Shown here one piece after another: positions 36,709-47,382 of a stretch of DNA of 56,655 nucleotides (within the stretch, counting starts at the first letter, position 1; each line of letters starts with the position of its first letter). The position numbers and the translations under genes are program-made. Source of the stretch: Bacteroidota bacterium. Lineage in GTDB: Bacteria; Bacteroidota; Rhodothermia; Rhodothermales; Bin80. The notes below the pieces were generated by a model that was given only the letters and a program-made list of their open reading frames with translations, did not search any database and was not told the DNA's origin. The DNA lies in contig JAPOTE010000112.1 of NCBI GenBank assembly GCA_026709335.1, positions 1 to 56,655 on the forward strand. The letters are read 5' to 3'.

Positions 36709-37533
36709 ATGTTACGATCGAACGGGAAGCTAACTCGGAAATTCTACGAAGAAGAGCTCGCCAAGCTACACGTACAACTCGCCAGACTCCAGCGCTACAT
36801 TCGTATTAATAAATTGCGCATTGTCGTGTTGTTTGAAGGCCGAGATGCTGCCGGTAAAGGTGGAACCATTAAACGAATCACTGCTCCTCTAAATCCCCGG
36901 GTCTGTCGCGTAGTAGCTCTTACAAAGCCCACAGAGAGGGAAGCTTCTCAATGGTACTTTCAGAGATATATTACTCATCTACCCGCTGGAGGGGAAATGG
37001 TACTCTTTGACCGGAGTTGGTATAACCGTGCCGGTGTGGAACGTGTCATGGGTTACTGCTCCGAAAAACAATATTGGGATTTCCTTCGGCAATGCCCCAT
37101 GTTCGAACGAATGTTGATTGAAAGTGGCATCATCCTTATCAAGTACTGGTTTTCCGTGAGTGCTCAGGAACAGGAGCGCAGATTCCAGCGCCGAATTGAT
37201 GATCCTACACGAAGATGGAAAATCAGCCCAATGGACCTTGAGTCAAGAGCTCGATGGGTTGATTACTCCAAAGCAAAAGATCAGATGTTCCTGAATACAG
37301 ATCTCCCAGACTCTCCTTGGTGGGTCATTGAAGCGAACGATAAGAAACGTGCTCGCCTTAACTGTATTCACCATCTCCTCAACCACATTCCCCACGAACG
37401 AATTGAGCCTGCCAAGGTGAGCCTGCCTCCACTGCAAATTCACGAAAACTACGTTCGTCCAGCGATAGACACTCAACGAATCGTGCCAGATCGTTTTGCC
37501 ATTCAGGATCAACCCAGAGAAGAGGAGACTTGA
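36709..37533 (+). CDS. ppk2: Polyphosphate kinase 2 (PPK2)
   Basis: 274 residues of the one-domain PPK2 type. Walker A is VLFEGRDAAGKGGTIKRI (about 42-59), lid and Walker B FDRSWYNRAGVERVMGY (about 104-120), and the C-terminal signature RRWKISPMDLESRARWVDYS. PPK2 enzymes use polyphosphate to phosphorylate nucleoside di- or monophosphates; the sequence style (class I, WKISPMD) suggests NDP to NTP, although class III is not excluded. It opens the phosphate/polyphosphate neighbourhood that includes ppk1 3.5 kb away. Confidence 0.94.
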   Translation: MLRSNGKLTRKFYEEELAKLHVQLARLQRYIRINKLRIVVLFEGRDAAGKGGTIKRITAPLNPRVCRVVALTKPTEREASQWYFQRYITHLPAGGEMVLFDRSWYNRAGVERVMGYCSEKQYWDFLRQCPMFERMLIESGIILIKYWFSVSAQEQERRFQRRIDDPTRRWKISPMDLESRARWVDYSKAKDQMFLNTDLPDSPWWVIEANDKKRARLNCIHHLLNHIPHERIEPAKVSLPPLQIHENYVRPAIDTQRIVPDRFAIQDQPREEET

Positions 37534-38910: not shown

Positions 38911-41073
38911 CTAAAAGAGTTCCCAGGGATGTGCTTTCTCTTCTTCTAACCAGTCGGCACGTACGTTCAGCAGTTTTTCCTGTACTGAAAGAGTGTTGTC
39001 TACGGGCTCAGGTCTCATGTAATTGCCTTCTTTCGTGAGATATCTGGCTTTAACGGAATCCCGGAGATACGATTCCAGTACGATATCTCGCAGATAGCGT
39101 ACATATTCCCTGTCCTGAATAGGAAACAGGACTTCTACCCTTCGATTGAGATTTCGAGGCATTAGGTCTGCACTCCCTAAATAAATCTCCTCATTCCCCC
39201 CATTACCAAAATAGTAGATGCGACTATGCTCCAGGAAGCGACTGACAATACTGATGATCCGGATGTTCTCACTTAATCCCGGAATTCCCGGCTTCAGGCA
39301 ACATATTCCGCGAACAAGAAGATCTATCTTGACTCCTGCCTGCGATGCCTCATAAAGCAAACGAATCATCTTCTCATCCGTGAGGGCATTGGTCTTGAAA
39401 ATCAAATATGCCTCTCGACCTGACTTCTGATGCTCGATCTCTCTGTGAATCAATTCGGTGAAACGCTTCCGGAGATTTATTGGAGCAACTAATAGTTTTT
39501 GATAATTTCGCTTCTCAGAGTAACCTGTTAAAAAATTAAACAAATCAGAAACATCTTCCCCGATCTTCGGATCAACAGTAAAGAAGCCTAGGTCCTCATA
39601 TACATGTGCGGTAATACTGTTGTAATTCCCCGTGGAAAGATGTACATACCGCCGGATATAGCCCGCTTCCTTGCGAATCACCAGAGCAATTTTTGAGTGT
39701 GTCTTGAGCCCGATCAAGCCATAGATTACATGAACACCTTCTCGCTCCAAAATTCTTGCCCAACCAATATTGCTCGCTTCATCAAAACGAGCTTTCAGTT
39801 CAACCAATACTGCAACCTGTTTCCCGTTCTCTCTTGCTTTCATAAGAGCGCTTACAATCGGAGATTGAGGGCCTACGCGATACAATGTCATCTTGATTGC
39901 AAGCACATTAGGATCAGAAGCAGCGGCTTCCAGAAATTCAATCACAGGTGAGAATGAATCATAGGGATGATGTACTAAATGATTCTGGGTTCTGACTGCT
40001 TTGAAAAAATCTCCATCACGTGTTTCAGGCTTGAGCCTTAAAGGGGTAAATGGTATAAACGGGGAATATTTGAGATCAAAGCGATCAATTCCTGATGCCG
40101 CATCCATCAGACTTTCAAGCCCCAGGGGGCCATTCACAACAACCACATCTTCTTCTCCGGCTCCCATGTTTTCGATCAAAATCTTGAGCACATGATCAGG
40201 CATATCTGCATTGACTGTGAGTCTCAATACAGAGCCAAGTCGACGTTGACGCACTCCTTGCTCCATGGTTTCCAGCAAATCATCTGCCTCCAATTCCTGA
40301 ATGGTCATATCCGCATTTCGTGTTACTCTGAAGGGATATGCAGCCTCCACTTTCATGCCGGGAAAAAGCGATTGCAAGTTTGCTGCAATCACCTCCTCTA
40401 CCCATACAAACGAAAAAATTCTCCGTATACTTCCATCGACCGAAGTAGTCCATGGCTCAGAAATGACAGACATAAGCCGATCAATCGGTCTCGGAACCTT
40501 AACTCGGGCAAAACGCTCGCCTCCAAGCTCATCCTTTACAGTAACTGCCAAATTGAGACTCAGGTTTGAAATATGCGGAAAAGGGTGGGATGGATCTACT
40601 GCAAGTGGGGTCAGAACAGGAAATATGGTTCGCTTATACTTCCTTGTTACTTCCTCCTTTTGAGAATCTGTTAAATCAGAATAGTTCAAAATTTGAATCC
40701 CTGCCGCCGACAGCTCGGGAATCATGGTTGACAGAAGGTATTCATGGGCTTCCTTCATAAGCGCGTTTGCACCCTCTCGCACAGCTAGAAGAATTTCAGT
40801 TGGGGTTTGCCCATCAATCGATAGATCTGTCGTACCACTGGCAACCTGCTTCTTGAGCCCTCCGATACGCACCATATAAAACTCGTCGAGATTGGATCCG
40901 ACAATCGAAAGAAATTTCAGTCGCTCCAATAATGGATTAGCTTCGTCCTTGGCTTCCTCGAAAACGCGATATTGAAAATCCAGTAAGCTGAGTTCCCGGT
41001 TATTGTACAGTGCTGGATCTTTGAGATCCGCCACATGTGATAGGGTATTCTCGGTAGCAGTTTCTTCACTCAT
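38911..41073 (-). CDS. ppk1: Polyphosphate kinase 1
   Basis: 720 residues, full length for PPK1, which polymerises ATP gamma-phosphate into polyphosphate at the inner membrane. The N-terminal domain starts NNRELSLLDFQYRVFEEAKD. The autophosphorylated histidine lies in RRYVHLSTGNYNS and the second catalytic histidine in LEHSRIYYFGNGG, followed by SADLMPRNLNRRVEVLFPI. All four PPK1 domains are present. The upstream region is shared with the divergent TonB receptor and holds a PHO-box-like repeat next to a -7 element in the right orientation for this gene. Confidence 0.97.
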   Translation of the reverse strand: MSEETATENTLSHVADLKDPALYNNRELSLLDFQYRVFEEAKDEANPLLERLKFLSIVGSNLDEFYMVRIGGLKKQVASGTTDLSIDGQTPTEILLAVREGANALMKEAHEYLLSTMIPELSAAGIQILNYSDLTDSQKEEVTRKYKRTIFPVLTPLAVDPSHPFPHISNLSLNLAVTVKDELGGERFARVKVPRPIDRLMSVISEPWTTSVDGSIRRIFSFVWVEEVIAANLQSLFPGMKVEAAYPFRVTRNADMTIQELEADDLLETMEQGVRQRRLGSVLRLTVNADMPDHVLKILIENMGAGEEDVVVVNGPLGLESLMDAASGIDRFDLKYSPFIPFTPLRLKPETRDGDFFKAVRTQNHLVHHPYDSFSPVIEFLEAAASDPNVLAIKMTLYRVGPQSPIVSALMKARENGKQVAVLVELKARFDEASNIGWARILEREGVHVIYGLIGLKTHSKIALVIRKEAGYIRRYVHLSTGNYNSITAHVYEDLGFFTVDPKIGEDVSDLFNFLTGYSEKRNYQKLLVAPINLRKRFTELIHREIEHQKSGREAYLIFKTNALTDEKMIRLLYEASQAGVKIDLLVRGICCLKPGIPGLSENIRIISIVSRFLEHSRIYYFGNGGNEEIYLGSADLMPRNLNRRVEVLFPIQDREYVRYLRDIVLESYLRDSVKARYLTKEGNYMRPEPVDNTLSVQEKLLNVRADWLEEEKAHPWELF

Positions 41074-41152
41074 GTTTCTAGTCCAACTTCTTGATTATTG
41101 AAAAAATCTACAAAATCTTGTAGCAAATAAATACGACAGATAATGAGTAACA

Positions 41153-41160
41153 CAAATTTA
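41153..41160 (-). promoter_or_regulatory. Bacteroidota-type -7 promoter element for ppk1
   Basis: On the minus strand these bases read TAAATTTG, an exact match to the TAnnTTTG consensus of Bacteroidota housekeeping promoters. It is about 80 bp upstream of the ppk1 ATG and 8 bp from the PHO-box-like repeat, which takes the place where a -33 element would be, as at activator-dependent promoters. Confidence 0.5.
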
Positions 41161-41168
41161 TAGATCTA

Positions 41169-41186
41169 TTAACATACAGTTAACAT
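41169..41186. promoter_or_regulatory. PHO-box-like direct repeat in the ppk1 / TonB-receptor intergenic region
   Basis: The plus strand reads TTAACATACAGTTAACAT: two identical 7-bp repeats (41169-41175 and 41180-41186) separated by 4 bp, an 11-bp period. A third, weaker copy (TTATAGA, 41158-41164) keeps the period. PhoB/PhoP-type response regulators bind tandem 6-8-bp repeats with this spacing: Bacillus PhoP sites are TTAACA-like, cyanobacterial sites CTTAACCT-like, and the opposite strand here (TGTTAAC...TGTTAA) recalls the E. coli TGTCA words. Genes on both sides concern phosphate. The repeat is seen; the regulator assignment is inference. Confidence 0.5.
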
Positions 41187-41249
41187 CAAATCGCGTTCCA
41201 TTGAATTAAAACTCTCCATAAGCACTCCTTTCTATCCTTAATTTTAATC

Positions 41250-44246
41250 ATGCCCTTTATCGGTAGTTTCCGCTTGATTGGCATTGCACCGATCTTCCTT
41301 CTGCTGATCTCCTCACAAGTCAACGCCCAAGTGGGCACGATTTCGGGCATCATTGTTGATGGCGAAAACGGCGAGAACCTCATTGGAGCTACAGCTGCGA
41401 TTGATGGCTCCACTCTTGGCGATGCTACCGACCTGAACGGGAGATACGAATTTGCCGCCGAGCCTGGAACGTATACAATGAAATTCTCTTACATAGGCTT
41501 CTCGACAGTTACAGTGAAGAATGTAGTGGTTGTCTCGGGAGAAATCACCAGACTTGAGATCGAGCTTCTCCCCGAAGCAATCTCCTATGGAGAAGTTATT
41601 GTAGCCGCAGATGTAATTGAAGGATCTGAAGCAGGATTGTTACGTGAACGTGCCCGGTCTGTCGCCGTCAGTGATGCCATCAGCGCAGAAGCCATCAGCA
41701 GGTCGGGATCTGGCGATGCCGCCGCTGCTATGAGCAAGGTCACCGGAGCTTCCGTAGTTGGAGGTCGCTACGTATATATACGGGGCTTGGGGGATCGATA
41801 TGCCAACACGACTCTCAATGGATCTACGCTACCAAGTGCTGACCCGGATCGTAAGGCATTTCAACTGGACCTTTTTCCCGCAGCATTGCTGGACAATATT
41901 GTGACACTCAAAACATTTACACCTGATAAACCTGGTGATTTTAGTGGTGGATTGGTGGATGTGGCGACCAAAGCTTTTCCTGAGTCTTTCACGTTGCAAC
42001 TGTCTGCGTCTCTCACCTATGACGATCAATCAAGCAGGATTGACAATTTTCTTTCTTATCCAGGCAGTAGCACTGATTGGTTAGGTTACGATGATGGCCT
42101 TCGTGCATTACCCGATGTTTTGGAAAACAAAAACCCAGAGGATCAATTACCTCGAGAATCAGATCTTCGTGATTTGCGCAGGGGAGTGACCAACGAGATC
42201 AGGGCAAATAGGGCGGATTCTCTGAACGCTTTTTCTCGGGCATTCAACGGCATTATGACACCAGCACTTACTTCTACACCAGTCAACCATAGCTTTTCTG
42301 CAGCCGCTGGGGGTAAAATGAATTTATTTGGTCGACCACTTGGAATAACAGGCAGCTTAACCTATGGCAGGAGCTATAGCTACTATGATGATGGTGTGTT
42401 CAGTCAATGGCGCTTGGTAGGGGGAGATGTAGCCTCCACTGAAAACCTGTCTAGTACAACATATTTTGGCCCAAACCCCGATCTTGATTTAATTACGCGG
42501 GCCGATCCAAAAGAAGCACCTTCTTTTGAGAATATTCAAAGTAGTGACGAAGTCAATTGGGGAACTTCGGCTACGATAGCCTTCCAACCCCGTGACAATC
42601 ACGAAATCGTTGCAACTGTTCTCCGTACTCAAAGCGGTTCAAGTAATTCTACCTCACTGGGGGGATTCCGCGATCAAACGGGTGGTACAACATTTGTAAC
42701 ACGGACACTGAGTTATCAAGAACGTTCTTTGTATAGCCTTCAATTAAGAGGTGAGCATATACTTGGCCCTCTACAAATTGAATGGAAAACATCCCTTGCA
42801 AATAATTCACAGGAAGAGCCTGATTTACGCTTCTTTTCCGGTACACAAAATGTCCGGGAAAGTGCTAGCAAAATTGATACAACCTATTCACTAGGAGGCG
42901 GAAATGCCCCACCTCCTCAACGCTATTTTCGTGATCTGAATGAAGATAGCCACGGTGCCGTATTGGATATTACGATTCCATTCCGTCAATGGTCTGGCCT
43001 CGCAACTCGCGTGAAGCTGGGAGGACGCTATGATTTTTCTGAGCGCGGATTCCGACAACGACGATTTGAATATCACGAAGGCCGAGAGATTGACTATAGA
43101 TACTTCAGAGGAGATGCACAGGCCTATTTCTCTGATCGCAATGTTGGCGTCCTAGATACTCTCCATGTAGGTGATATTGTGGCCTATAACGCCGGGCTCT
43201 ATATCCAAGAGAATTCTCCAGCCCGCTCCAATTACGATGCGACCCGTGATATCACAGCCGGGTACTTGATGCTCGAACTGCCTCTTACTCGCAAATTAAA
43301 AATCATCGGGGGCGCCAGACTGGAATCAACTCAGATCACATCTGAAAGTCATGATCAAACTCTCCCAGATTCATTACGAGTAGGTGAACTGGATAATCAG
43401 GACTGGCTTCCGTCGATTAACGTGGTATATGCCTTAAGTGAAAACATGAACTTCCGCTTGGCCGCCACAAGAACGATAGCTCGTCCCACATATCGAGAAC
43501 TTGCCCCGTTTCAGAGTTTCAATTTTGTCGGGGGAGATGTTCAGGAAGGTAATCCGCTTCTGACTCGAACGCTCATTAGCAATTATGATGTTCGCTGGGA
43601 AATGTTTGCCCGTGCCGGGGAAATTGTTGCCCTGAGTGCATTCTACAAAATTTTTAAAGATCCGATTGAACGCGTCCTGCGTAACGTGGGAGAAGGGCGC
43701 TTCGTATCGTTCCAGAATGTGGATCATGCCAAGGTATTTGGTGCCGAGGTTGAAGCCCGAAAACGATTATCTGCCTGGACCTCATTACCAGTCCTTAAAA
43801 ATCTTTCCGTTGGTGGCAATTTTTCATTGGTACGTTCTCAAGTAGATATACCTGAAGAAGAGATGGTCATTATTCGCGCATCCGCTCCCAATGCCAGTAG
43901 TTCCCGCTCACTGGAAGGACAATCTCCCTTCTTATTGAACCTAAGTACCAGTTACGAAAACTATACCTCAGGGACTGTTATTGGGCTCTACTATACTGTC
44001 TTTGGAGATCGACTTTTATCTGTCACAGAAGGTGCCACTCCTGACGTATTTGAAAAAGCCAGAAATGACCTTGATGTAACTATTTCACAAGATCTTCCCG
44101 CGAATCTGCGACTGAAAATCAGCGCAAAAAACTTGTTAAAATCAGATGTGCGACAGATTCAAACTTTCAAAGATCGAGTGTACGACTATATCTCCTACTC
44201 AAGATCCCGGACGATAGGAATCGGAATCAGCTATATCATTGACTAA
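41250..44246 (+). CDS. TonB-dependent outer-membrane receptor, candidate phosphate-regulon member
   Basis: 998 residues. Signal peptide ending QVNAQ (about 26), carboxypeptidase-like regulatory domain (about 29-112, GTISGIIVDGENGENLIGAT, then YIGFSTVTVKNVVV), plug (about 140-240 with YVYIRGLGDRYANTTLNG and GGLVDVATKAFPES) and a long barrel ending in an amphipathic strand (RTIGIGISYIID). The plug motif RGLGDRYxxTxLNG marks a subgroup frequent in marine Bacteroidota and Proteobacteria and thought to import phosphorylated or complex compounds. No SusD partner follows; the next gene is a T9SS-secreted protein. The PHO-box-like site lies 64 bp upstream. Confidence 0.92.
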   Translation: MPFIGSFRLIGIAPIFLLLISSQVNAQVGTISGIIVDGENGENLIGATAAIDGSTLGDATDLNGRYEFAAEPGTYTMKFSYIGFSTVTVKNVVVVSGEITRLEIELLPEAISYGEVIVAADVIEGSEAGLLRERARSVAVSDAISAEAISRSGSGDAAAAMSKVTGASVVGGRYVYIRGLGDRYANTTLNGSTLPSADPDRKAFQLDLFPAALLDNIVTLKTFTPDKPGDFSGGLVDVATKAFPESFTLQLSASLTYDDQSSRIDNFLSYPGSSTDWLGYDDGLRALPDVLENKNPEDQLPRESDLRDLRRGVTNEIRANRADSLNAFSRAFNGIMTPALTSTPVNHSFSAAAGGKMNLFGRPLGITGSLTYGRSYSYYDDGVFSQWRLVGGDVASTENLSSTTYFGPNPDLDLITRADPKEAPSFENIQSSDEVNWGTSATIAFQPRDNHEIVATVLRTQSGSSNSTSLGGFRDQTGGTTFVTRTLSYQERSLYSLQLRGEHILGPLQIEWKTSLANNSQEEPDLRFFSGTQNVRESASKIDTTYSLGGGNAPPPQRYFRDLNEDSHGAVLDITIPFRQWSGLATRVKLGGRYDFSERGFRQRRFEYHEGREIDYRYFRGDAQAYFSDRNVGVLDTLHVGDIVAYNAGLYIQENSPARSNYDATRDITAGYLMLELPLTRKLKIIGGARLESTQITSESHDQTLPDSLRVGELDNQDWLPSINVVYALSENMNFRLAATRTIARPTYRELAPFQSFNFVGGDVQEGNPLLTRTLISNYDVRWEMFARAGEIVALSAFYKIFKDPIERVLRNVGEGRFVSFQNVDHAKVFGAEVEARKRLSAWTSLPVLKNLSVGGNFSLVRSQVDIPEEEMVIIRASAPNASSSRSLEGQSPFLLNLSTSYENYTSGTVIGLYYTVFGDRLLSVTEGATPDVFEKARNDLDVTISQDLPANLRLKISAKNLLKSDVRQIQTFKDRVYDYISYSRSRTIGIGISYIID

Positions 44247-44397: not shown

Positions 44398-46152
44398 ATG
44401 CTAAAGTTTTTTACTCTCTGCGCAGCAGCATTTTTTTCATATGCTATAATTTCGATGGATGTTGTAGCACAATCTGATGATGTGGAGGCCCGCCCTGAGG
44501 TGTCGGTAACGGATAGTGACATCAACACCGGTGATGAGGTCCGCTGGACATCCGATAATGTGTATATCCTGGATGGGCTCGTGATCGTTGAAGATGGTGC
44601 TGAACTTCGTATCGATGCCGGTACTGTCGTGAAAGCGAACGAGGGGACGGGAACCGATGCTTCCGCACTCGTGATCGCTCGTGGCGGAAAAATATTTGCC
44701 GAAGGTACACTGACCCAGCCCATTATCTTCACTTCAGTTCAGGACAATATCTCCAGCGATGATTTGCTCACCTATGAAGATCGAGGACTCTGGGGAGGTA
44801 TTGTTATTCTTGGCCATGCAACCACCAATAATCCTGGTGACGCCGCCGGTGACTACAAGGAGATTGAGGGAGTCAACGAACTCGTCCCCGATGGCGATAC
44901 ACGTGCAGAATACGGTGGGAGTAATGACAATGATAATTCCGGGGTCATTCGCTATGCCTCTATTCGTCATACAGGAATTAATATTGGCGAATCGGACGGC
45001 AACGAAATACAGGGCTTAACTCTAGGTGGCGTGGGAGATGGCACCGTCCTCGAATATATTGAAGTCTATGCCAGTGGAGATGATGGCGTAGAATTTTTTG
45101 GCGGCACCGTTGGCCTGAAGTACTTCGTGAGCGTCTTCAACTCTGATGATGCCGTGGACTGGGATCAGGGATGGCGTGGAAAAGGGCAATTCTGGTTCGT
45201 ATTACAAGCTCCGGACAAAGCCGGCGCCGCTGCAGAACAGGATGGTGCAGGAGGTGATGAACACTTCAAACCTTATGCGATCCCAAGAATCTACAATGCT
45301 ACCTATGTAGGTGCGGGATCAAATGCCTCTCCTGAATCAGATCGCGGAGAAATGCTCATGTTCCGGGACAATACAGGCGGATTCTATCATAACTCGATCT
45401 TTACCCAGTTCAATACGGGTGAAGGAGGGCATGCAATCCAGATTGAAGACATCGATAACACTGGAGCCAAAACCGAAGATAGCCGCCAGCGATTTGAAGC
45501 CGGAGATCTCGGCCTGACCCACAATATTTGGTGGGACTTCGGTGCAGGCGTGAACCCTCAAACTTGGATTGCAGGAAGTGATCTAGGCTTTGTGACCTCC
45601 ATATTGGACTATCTTCTGGCCAACGAAAATGATACAGTGGACCCTCAACTTCGCGGAATTGAGCGTGGAACGACGGGCACAGGTACGCTTGACCCAAGAC
45701 CACACACCGGGAGCCCCGCATTTACAAATGCCAGAGCTGACTCCACAGATGACCCCTTCTTCACTGTAACCAACTACATTGGAGCATTTGGTCGTACAAA
45801 CTGGCTGGTTGGATGGACTGCCCTTGATGAACTCGGATACGTAGGTGATATTGCGACTTCAATTGAGCAGGTTGGCACCGAAATTCCCTCCGAAATTGTT
45901 TTGGGACAGAACTACCCGAACCCCTTCAATCCCAGTACCATGATTGAATTTAGCCTTGATCGGACGCAACATGTTACTTTGGGAGTATACGACCTCACAG
46001 GCCGCCAGGTAGCTCAACTAATCAACGCTCCAAAAACAGTAGGCACTTATCGTGTCATGTTTGACGGAAATCAACTCGCAAGTGGATTATACATCTATCA
46101 GTTACGAACAGAGAACCAAGTACTGACCCGTAAGATGACGCTTATTAAGTAG
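44398..46152 (+). CDS. Secreted beta-helix-like protein with T9SS C-terminal sorting domain
   Basis: 584 residues. Signal peptide (about 1-25, ending VVAQ), then a domain rich in Gly/Asp repeats that reads as a right-handed parallel helix (VIVEDGAELRIDAGTVVKAN, IRYASIRHTGINIGESDG, YASGDDGVEFFGGTVGLKY), as in surface proteins described only as T9SS proteins or pectate-lyase-like folds. The last 80 residues are the sorting domain (NYPNPFNPSTMIEFSL, VYDLTGRQVAQL, ending KMTLIK). It follows the TonB receptor by 151 bp and is probably its surface partner; no hydrolase motif is evident. Confidence 0.85.
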   Translation: MLKFFTLCAAAFFSYAIISMDVVAQSDDVEARPEVSVTDSDINTGDEVRWTSDNVYILDGLVIVEDGAELRIDAGTVVKANEGTGTDASALVIARGGKIFAEGTLTQPIIFTSVQDNISSDDLLTYEDRGLWGGIVILGHATTNNPGDAAGDYKEIEGVNELVPDGDTRAEYGGSNDNDNSGVIRYASIRHTGINIGESDGNEIQGLTLGGVGDGTVLEYIEVYASGDDGVEFFGGTVGLKYFVSVFNSDDAVDWDQGWRGKGQFWFVLQAPDKAGAAAEQDGAGGDEHFKPYAIPRIYNATYVGAGSNASPESDRGEMLMFRDNTGGFYHNSIFTQFNTGEGGHAIQIEDIDNTGAKTEDSRQRFEAGDLGLTHNIWWDFGAGVNPQTWIAGSDLGFVTSILDYLLANENDTVDPQLRGIERGTTGTGTLDPRPHTGSPAFTNARADSTDDPFFTVTNYIGAFGRTNWLVGWTALDELGYVGDIATSIEQVGTEIPSEIVLGQNYPNPFNPSTMIEFSLDRTQHVTLGVYDLTGRQVAQLINAPKTVGTYRVMFDGNQLASGLYIYQLRTENQVLTRKMTLIK

Positions 46153-46172: not shown

Positions 46173-46214
46173 GAAAATGCCGGGTTTCTCCCGCATGAGG
46201 AGTCCGGCATTTTC
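46173..46214 (+). terminator. Strong hairpin between the T9SS gene and the Na/Pi cotransporter gene
   Basis: Arms GAAAATGCCGG (46173-46183) and CCGGCATTTTC (46204-46214) are perfectly complementary over 11 bp with a 20-base loop, followed by GTTTCTATTCC. It begins 20 bp after the upstream stop and ends 19 bp before the cotransporter ATG. It is best read as an intrinsic terminator or partial attenuator that lowers expression of the downstream gene. Confidence 0.65.
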
Positions 46215-46233
46215 GTTTCTATTCCATTTCCCC

Positions 46234-47382
46234 ATGGCTTTAGCAAATCAGGAATCGTCAGGAATCCGCCGCCTTGCTCCATTTTTACCTTTGCTGGGAC
46301 TGCTCGGAGTTCTATTCTGCTTTTTTGTCAGCCTGGAGCTTATGGGGACTTCCATGAAGCTCCTGGGTAAAGGGTTTGCAACGCAATTGATCGAAACAAC
46401 GAGCAACCCTTTCGTAGCATTGTTTATTGGAATTCTTGCTACATCTCTCGTCCAAAGCTCATCAACGGTAACATCTCTCGCTGTGTCTGCTGTGGCAGGT
46501 GGAGGACTTACTGTGGCCGGGGCAATTCCAATCGTTTTGGGGGCAAATGTTGGCACCAGTGTGACAAATACGATTGTCTCTCTGGGGCATATTGGAAGAA
46601 AAGAAGAATTTGGTCGTGCCATGGGAGCTGCTACAGTCCATGACTTCTTTAACCTGTTGGCGGTTACCATCTTTTTTCCTCTGGAACTGATGTTTGGATT
46701 TCTATCCAAATCATCTGCCGCGCTCACAAAAGGGGTTACAGGCGTAGGTGGAACAGAATTATTTGATTTTGTCGGTCAAATGACTGCCCCGGTTGTAGAT
46801 GGATTGGTTCGATTGATGCAAGATTCCGGCATACCCGTATTGATTCTTGGGATTCTTTTGTTGTTCCTCTCGTTACGCTATTTGGTTGTACTACTGCGCT
46901 CTCTATTTCTCGGGCGCTCTGAACGTCTGATTAACAAATACTTGTTTGGACCTGCTCCCATTGCCTTGGCATTTGGTACACTTGTAACCATTATGGTACA
47001 GAGTTCATCTATCACAACGTCCATTACGGTCCCGCTTGTTGGCGCAGGCATTGTCACAGTATCTCAGATTTTCCCTTTTGTTTTAGGCGCCAATATTGGG
47101 ACAACCATTACTGCCTTGCTCGCTGCGCTTGTTCTATCAAGTGGAGGAGATGCACTAGGAATCGCTTCTTTGCAAGTAGCCCTCGCTCACTTGATCTTTA
47201 ATTGTTGCGGTGTACTCGCTTTCCTACCTATTAAAAGGTTACGGAGGGTTCCTGTCATGATGGCCGAATATTTAGGTACACTCACCTTGAAAAACCGTGC
47301 CTGGGCTGCAGTATATCTTGCGTGTATTTTCTTTGTAATTCCGCTTATGATCATTTTCTTGGCCCGTGAACTGAATTTGTGA
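46234..47382 (+). CDS. Short Na+/phosphate cotransporter (NptA/SLC34-like)
   Basis: 382 residues from ATG 46234 (MALANQESSGIRRLAP); the frame upstream runs through the hairpin and is not expected to be translated. Two inverted Na/Pi-cotransporter repeats, each with the hallmark QSSS motif: SLVQSSSTVTSLAVSAVAGG and VQSSSITTSITVPLVGAG, plus paired GANVGTSVTNT and GANIGTTITAL loops. There is no PhoU-like C-terminal domain, so it matches the compact NptA type rather than the YjbB type. It imports inorganic phosphate with sodium at the inner membrane, completing the local set of receptor, transporter and polyphosphate kinases. Confidence 0.92.
   Translation: MALANQESSGIRRLAPFLPLLGLLGVLFCFFVSLELMGTSMKLLGKGFATQLIETTSNPFVALFIGILATSLVQSSSTVTSLAVSAVAGGGLTVAGAIPIVLGANVGTSVTNTIVSLGHIGRKEEFGRAMGAATVHDFFNLLAVTIFFPLELMFGFLSKSSAALTKGVTGVGGTELFDFVGQMTAPVVDGLVRLMQDSGIPVLILGILLLFLSLRYLVVLLRSLFLGRSERLINKYLFGPAPIALAFGTLVTIMVQSSSITTSITVPLVGAGIVTVSQIFPFVLGANIGTTITALLAALVLSSGGDALGIASLQVALAHLIFNCCGVLAFLPIKRLRRVPVMMAEYLGTLTLKNRAWAAVYLACIFFVIPLMIIFLARELNL

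Follow-up and report, generated by a model that had tools for sequence, protein, structure and literature searches.

Here, we identify a tandem array of four 11-bp units in the gap between two divergent genes, those for polyphosphate kinase 1 (ppk1) and a TonB-dependent receptor, within the 56,655-nucleotide stretch of DNA analyzed as a whole (the window), and we conclude from its sequence that it is very probably a PHO box. The array is conserved together with the receptor gene, keeps a fixed phase to a promoter -7 element in other genera, and recurs at pstS, DUF47, porin and phoB-like genes. From these computed features we infer PhoB as the binding protein, activation upon its binding, and any effect on ppk1. 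The explanation that accounts best for the observations as a whole, and that we hold with high confidence, is that phosphorylated PhoB (PhoB~P) on the array drives an uptake operon. In this model, PhoB~P would bind the four 11-bp units, each made of [T/G]TAA[C/T]A and a spacer, in head-to-tail arrangement, and at low phosphate would bring RNA polymerase to the promoter of the receptor gene, which lies immediately downstream of the array. The operon switched on in this way would supply the TonB receptor, a secreted partner protein and the Na+/Pi symporter NptA, and the effect on ppk1 would be either co-activation or occlusion of the ppk1 -7 element.

The gap spans 176 bp, with a GC content of 28%, between the start of ppk1 at 41073 on the minus strand and that of the receptor gene at 41250 on the plus strand. 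The ppk1 gene (38911-41073, minus strand) is assigned by TIGR03705 at 839.7 bits, against a cut-off of 465.85, and by Pfam, and has a ppk2 gene for polyphosphate kinase 2 as a neighbor (36709-37533, plus strand; TIGR03707 over cut-off). The receptor (41250-44246, plus strand) carries PF13715, Plug and PF14905/PF00593 domains, and its orthologues are full-length or nearly so in most of 59 relatives. It is followed on the same strand by its partner, a secreted protein with a T9SS sorting tail (44398-46152; PF18962), and then by an NptA-type Na+/Pi cotransporter gene (46177-47382; PF02690, with NF037997 over cut-off) that starts 24 bp past the end of the partner gene. The partner has homologous matches in 117 of 148 phylum genomes; its AlphaFold model is beta-rich (pLDDT 81) with no Foldseek match at E<=0.001, so that a pectin-lyase-like fold, a trait of the Flavobacterium partner proteins, is at most putative here, and a profile search returned no relatives among solved structures. 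At several loci in the phylum genomes (L234, L235, L239, L242 and L243) the partner is tandemly duplicated within one protein of ~970-990 amino acids.

The array itself consists of four in-phase 7-mers on the receptor strand with an exact 11-bp period, starting at 41147 (GTAACACAAAT), 41158 (TTATAGATCTA), 41169 (TTAACATACAG) and 41180 (TTAACATCAAA). A sequence-only reading of this DNA had pointed to a pair of TTAACAT words 11 bp apart, accompanied by a degenerate third copy. The pair is present at 41169-41186, as units 3 (41169-41175) and 4 (41180-41186), which are identical and offset by exactly 11 bp; the degenerate copy corresponds to TTATAGA, our unit 2 (41158-41164), and to these we add a fourth in-phase unit, GTAACAC (unit 1, 41147-41153). 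The receptor-proximal unit 4 reads [GT]TAACAT in all ten species of the genus, while unit 2 reads TTATA, TTAAA or TTAACA in most congeners and unit 1 reads nTTAC[A/T] in the nine other species. Judged from this one sequence, the repeat is no more than mildly surprising, as the probability that any 7-mer recurs 11 bp away within a 176-bp region of this composition is ~0.02. The four-unit array is the top-scoring site of the window (24.4, with every match outside it at 15.0 or below), and TTAACAN5TTAACA without mismatch occurs at 2 sites in the 2.8-Mb genome, one in the ppk1/receptor gap and the other on contig C66. A two-mismatch pattern gives 65/58 matches in the same genome versus 163/191 for a reversed control; since the control is commoner than the pattern, weak two-unit matches in this genome carry no weight. 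The array is significant because it is conserved in relatives, not because of single-sequence statistics.

This conservation extends from the genus to the order and the phylum. At the level of the order, we examined 330 bp upstream of the receptor gene in 19 Rhodothermales genera, taking one sequence per genus because genomes of the same genus are not independent; the pair counts, set against shuffles, otherwise ignore phylogeny. TAAY pairs spaced by 11 bp number 25 in these regions and pairs spaced by 22 bp number 16, against 0.3 expected from dinucleotide shuffles in each case, and the pairs keep to the receptor strand, with almost none on the opposite one. An EM alignment of the upstream regions yields units of the form [T/G]TAA[C/T]A; this motif model was seeded with a periodic TTAAC pattern, and the pair-count tests are independent of it. 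Upstream of the receptor/partner module in 20 further genomes of the phylum, TAAY pairs reach 50, 35 and 25 at 11, 22 and 33 bp, where shuffles predict ~1.5 at each spacing. When the Rhodothermales unit model is applied to these 20 genomes, 17 of the 20 regions preceding the receptor/partner module reach a score of 16 or more, as compared with 4 of 184 upstream regions of control ORFs from the same loci. Three relatives (L045, L052 and L055) have an additional array in the gap between receptor and partner, scoring up to 23.2 in L055, which suggests a second promoter within the operon. In another relative, G001 (contig C99, 7307-7763; L036), ppk1 and the array are separated by ~250 bp of extra DNA that looks like a small mobile element, its ends being inverted (GCTTTTGCAAAACC / GGTTTTGCAAAAGC).

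In most genera outside the window's own, the units are also locked in phase with a promoter element. Of the strong TAnnTTTG matches downstream of the array, 11 of 12 from Rhodothermales outside the window's genus, and 16 of 23 from the phylum set, follow a unit at phase 8 (mod 11). Some of the sequences that suggested the spacing rule also entered its counts; its independent test is a blind search of 148 genomes, in which two units followed by 8 bp and TAnnTTTG gave 103 matches versus 51 with the pattern reversed. The receptor -7 element is poor in the window's genus (4/6 matching positions at a spacing of 9), whereas TAnnTTTG stands at 8 bp in most other genera; the best candidate here is the weakly matching TTCCATTG (41196-41203, plus strand), 9 bp after unit 4, which would serve as the -7 element of the receptor promoter.

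The absence of the repeat from orthologous regions and from other phosphate genes would count against the sequence-only reading, and in relatives we find the site in both. Upstream regions of pstS in relatives from the order contain 8 TAAY pairs at 11 bp, against 0.2 expected, all on a single strand. A blind three-unit pattern run on 39 relatives returned 27 matches versus 12 for the reversed control, and these sit at the receptor, its partner, other TonB receptors, tonB, a DUF47/PhoU_div gene and a choice-of-anchor protein. Among the matches inspected from the 148-genome search, the genes downstream encode PstS (G119; TIGR02136 over cut-off), a PhoB-like regulator (G098), six DUF47/PhoU_div proteins (three assigned by Pfam and three by sequence similarity), two Porin_O_P-like (OprO/P-like) porins, TonB receptors and one CCP_MauG protein; the inspected matches include unrelated genes too, as background predicts. 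A very regular form of the box, mostly TTAACATTAACTTAACATT and then TAnnTTTG, lies 5' of DUF47/PhoU_div-like genes at loci L290, L291, L304, L305, L306 and L307, which represent five genomes of one family. Regulatory genes are associated with the module as well: the receptor/partner module of G105 and G064 has phoB- and phoR-like genes as neighbors, and that of G065 follows immediately on a response-regulator gene, with the array in between.

In the window's own genome, array sites were found at the receptor and tonB only among the loci scored. There is no notable array at its phoU, phoB/phoR or second OmpR-regulator loci, unlike in some relatives, where phoB does have an upstream array. The tonB site is a second strong array of four to five units (L063:9699-9749, corresponding to ~22198-22248 of contig C66 in G000), some 45-65 bp upstream of a gene for a TonB C-terminal-domain protein and in reversed orientation relative to that gene. 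An array of this type is kept in 6 of 6 congeners with a close orthologue, at 58-80 bp from the tonB start, and it would place the TonB energizer in the same regulon as the receptor.

The sequence-only reading took the site to be a PHO box shared by ppk1 and the receptor. Its first half is strongly supported by our analysis; the second, shared control of ppk1, is weaker and at most a possibility, as the array follows the receptor and is reversed relative to ppk1. The candidate -7 element that it placed 8 bp from 41169 on the ppk1 side is present as TAAATTTG (41153-41160, minus strand), a 6/6 match that overlaps units 1 and 2, but that distance is measured from a reverse-oriented unit, whereas it is for forward units that the 8-bp spacing is conserved, and the ppk1 strand departs from this rule. 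The possible roles of the array at ppk1 are alternatives within the PHO-box reading, and the probabilities that we attach to them are not exclusive of our best explanation.

The best placed of these roles, which we put forward tentatively, is that of a co-activator site from which PhoB would raise expression in both directions when phosphate is low, of ppk1 as well as of the receptor operon, and would thereby tie phosphate uptake to polyphosphate synthesis. The two genes lie close together in each of the ten species of the genus, and in the window 73 bp separate the array from the ppk1 ATG. The ppk1 strand keeps TAnnTTT[G/A/T] in 10 of 10 congeners, as is the spacer AAAY behind this -7 element (its AAA invariant), while the other spacers vary. 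Reversed arrays may be functional, since the tonB arrays, kept at 58-80 bp in all six congeners noted above, resemble that of ppk1 in distance. There are precedents for the direction of the response: the PPK-like gene Fjoh_3851 of F. johnsoniae, clustered with a TonB-dependent transporter (TBDT) and lipoprotein FI, goes up 7.8 log2 at low Pi (PMC8115612), and in B. fragilis the ppk gene BF2645 goes up 24-fold in a PhoB-dependent manner (PMC3547664). Against co-activation, the receptor-unlinked ppk1 genes examined in members of the order outside the family (L089-L102) have no strong array and show one weak match, and no array lies near ppk1 in G010, G012 or G015. The departure from the forward 8-bp rule and the position of the -7 element inside the array speak against it as well.

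Somewhat less likely, in our view, is that the array serves the receptor operon alone and that ppk1 is a neighbor with its own independent promoter. Consistent with this possibility, the array is directed towards the receptor and accompanies it across the order and the phylum irrespective of ppk1, and the insertion in G001 puts it ~400 bp from ppk1. On the other hand, the invariant AAAY spacer and the -7 element on the ppk1 strand within the genus suggest an extra constraint.

Because the ppk1 -7 element lies within the array, occlusion or repression is as possible as activation. This raises a third and somewhat more doubtful role, that of a reciprocal switch in which PhoB~P would activate the uptake operon while covering the ppk1 -7 element at 41153-41160, so that ppk1 expression would fall at low phosphate and phosphate would be stored only when plentiful. 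The overlap of this element with units 1 and 2 and the reversed orientation of the array fit such a switch, but published ppk genes of Bacteroidota go up at low Pi, not down. Moreover, other 5/6 matches to the -7 element are present in the ppk1 leader, and the ppk1 start site is putative. We consider it a little less probable still, and unlikely overall, that a phylum-wide box ([T/G]TAA[C/T]A with an 11-bp period, followed after 8 bp by TAnnTTTG) has come to lie between uptake and storage genes in this Pst-less genus and acts there as a reciprocal uptake-on/ppk1-off switch at low phosphate.

PhoB is not identified by the period alone, since tandem repeats of 10-11 bp are recognized by many regulators of the OmpR family. 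The array could then be the operator of another member of the OmpR/PhoB family, for example one devoted to the cell envelope or the TonB system, a reading in keeping with the occurrence of 11-bp tandem sites as a family trait and with the de novo matches at tonB and at TonB receptors without assigned cargo. We judge this to be quite improbable, given the association of the box with pstS, DUF47, phosphate-porin-like and phoB-like genes, the phoBR-like genes that adjoin the module, and the narrow choice of regulators in the genome itself. Only two of its proteins carry PF00486. One, P0001 (contig C52 of G000; L148:5955-6776, minus strand), has PhoB as its best NCBIfam match (TIGR02154 at 205 bits, below the equivalog cut-off of 296); the adjoining PhoR-like kinase (L148:4885-5940) best matches PnpS/PhoR, also below the equivalog cut-off, and the pair is kept in G005 and G006. 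The other PF00486 regulator scores lower to PhoB, at 132 versus 205 bits. Judged by these profile matches, the likely regulator of the array is P0001 with its PhoR-like kinase. G005 has an extra regulator/kinase pair on contig C3 (L150:5574-7784), ~10 kb from the receptor and near ppk2/ppk1/receptor, whose regulator scores 221 bits to the Bacteroidota PhoB model (cut-off 270); we found no counterpart in the window's own genome. Finally, a chance repeat in AT-rich DNA, to which the 28% GC of the gap and the p of ~0.02 for the 7-mer repeat alone might lend some color, has a negligible probability and is rejected, since the array is conserved and phase-locked in many genera and families.

PstS (PF12849) has no match in any of the 16 genomes searched of the window's family, f1 (G000-G015), and is present in 10 of 14 relatives from the order, an apparent loss of the Pst system in the family. 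As far as this absence from draft genomes goes, the TonB/NptA operon is probably the route that the family mainly induces for phosphate. Our analysis suggests that in this family of Rhodothermales the TonB/NptA route replaces Pst, with polyphosphate synthesis placed beside it. The named relatives of the family are metagenome bins, probably from marine sponges. Since sponge symbionts accumulate polyphosphate (PMC7022310), the question of ppk1 control has ecological weight. More broadly, PhoB regulons of Bacteroidota have so far been measured by transcriptomics and proteomics, and a box with a fixed -7 spacing would make the phosphate regulon predictable from sequence in uncultured Bacteroidota.

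The array shares its basic design with boxes known from other phyla. The PhoP box of B. subtilis is made of TTAACA-type repeats and the cyanobacterial Pho box of TTAAC-type ones; both have a core word nearly identical to ours and an 11-bp period, while phyla and promoter elements differ and we claim no homology. PHO boxes in E. coli, Streptomyces, Bacillus and others consist of tandem direct 11-nt units with ~7 conserved positions (PMC4415409), and our array resembles these in its tandem 11-nt direct units before phosphate genes and in the possibility of multiple units. It differs from them in its core, [T/G]TAA[C/T]A as opposed to CTGTCAT or GTTCACC, and in the fixed 8 bp (mod 11) that separate the Bacteroidota box from a -7 TAnnTTTG, where known PHO boxes are associated with a sigma-70 -10 element. 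The design of 7-mers at 11 bp was thus already known (PMC4415409), but the open-access literature searched, beyond which most subscription journals lie, yielded no consensus for a Bacteroidota PHO box and no spacing to the -7 element.

Within the Bacteroidota, two phosphate regulons offer a comparison. In B. fragilis, PhoB binds the pstC promoter and ppk is PhoB-dependent (PMC3547664); the passages that describe this give neither a site nor a consensus, and the word "consensus" did not turn up when the text was searched. In F. johnsoniae, low Pi induces the TBDT and lipoprotein FII of the PhoBR operon by 8.0 and 9.9 log2; the term PHO box has 0 occurrences in the paper on this induction (PMC8115612). 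Our module shares with the F. johnsoniae PhoBR operon and PUSIII-IV a PF07715/PF13715/PF14905 receptor followed by a secreted partner and linked to phosphate genes, where the match to Fjoh_0545/0546 is one of domain content and gene order and not of compared sequences. PUSIII contains a PPK-like gene, just as ppk1 lies beside the receptor here. Unlike in F. johnsoniae, the module in the window has no adjoining phoBR and is instead joined to NptA and a divergent ppk1. The layout of the Flavobacterium low-Pi TBDT and FI/FII pairs is nonetheless that of our receptor and partner, and in some genomes phoBR-like genes adjoin this module as well.
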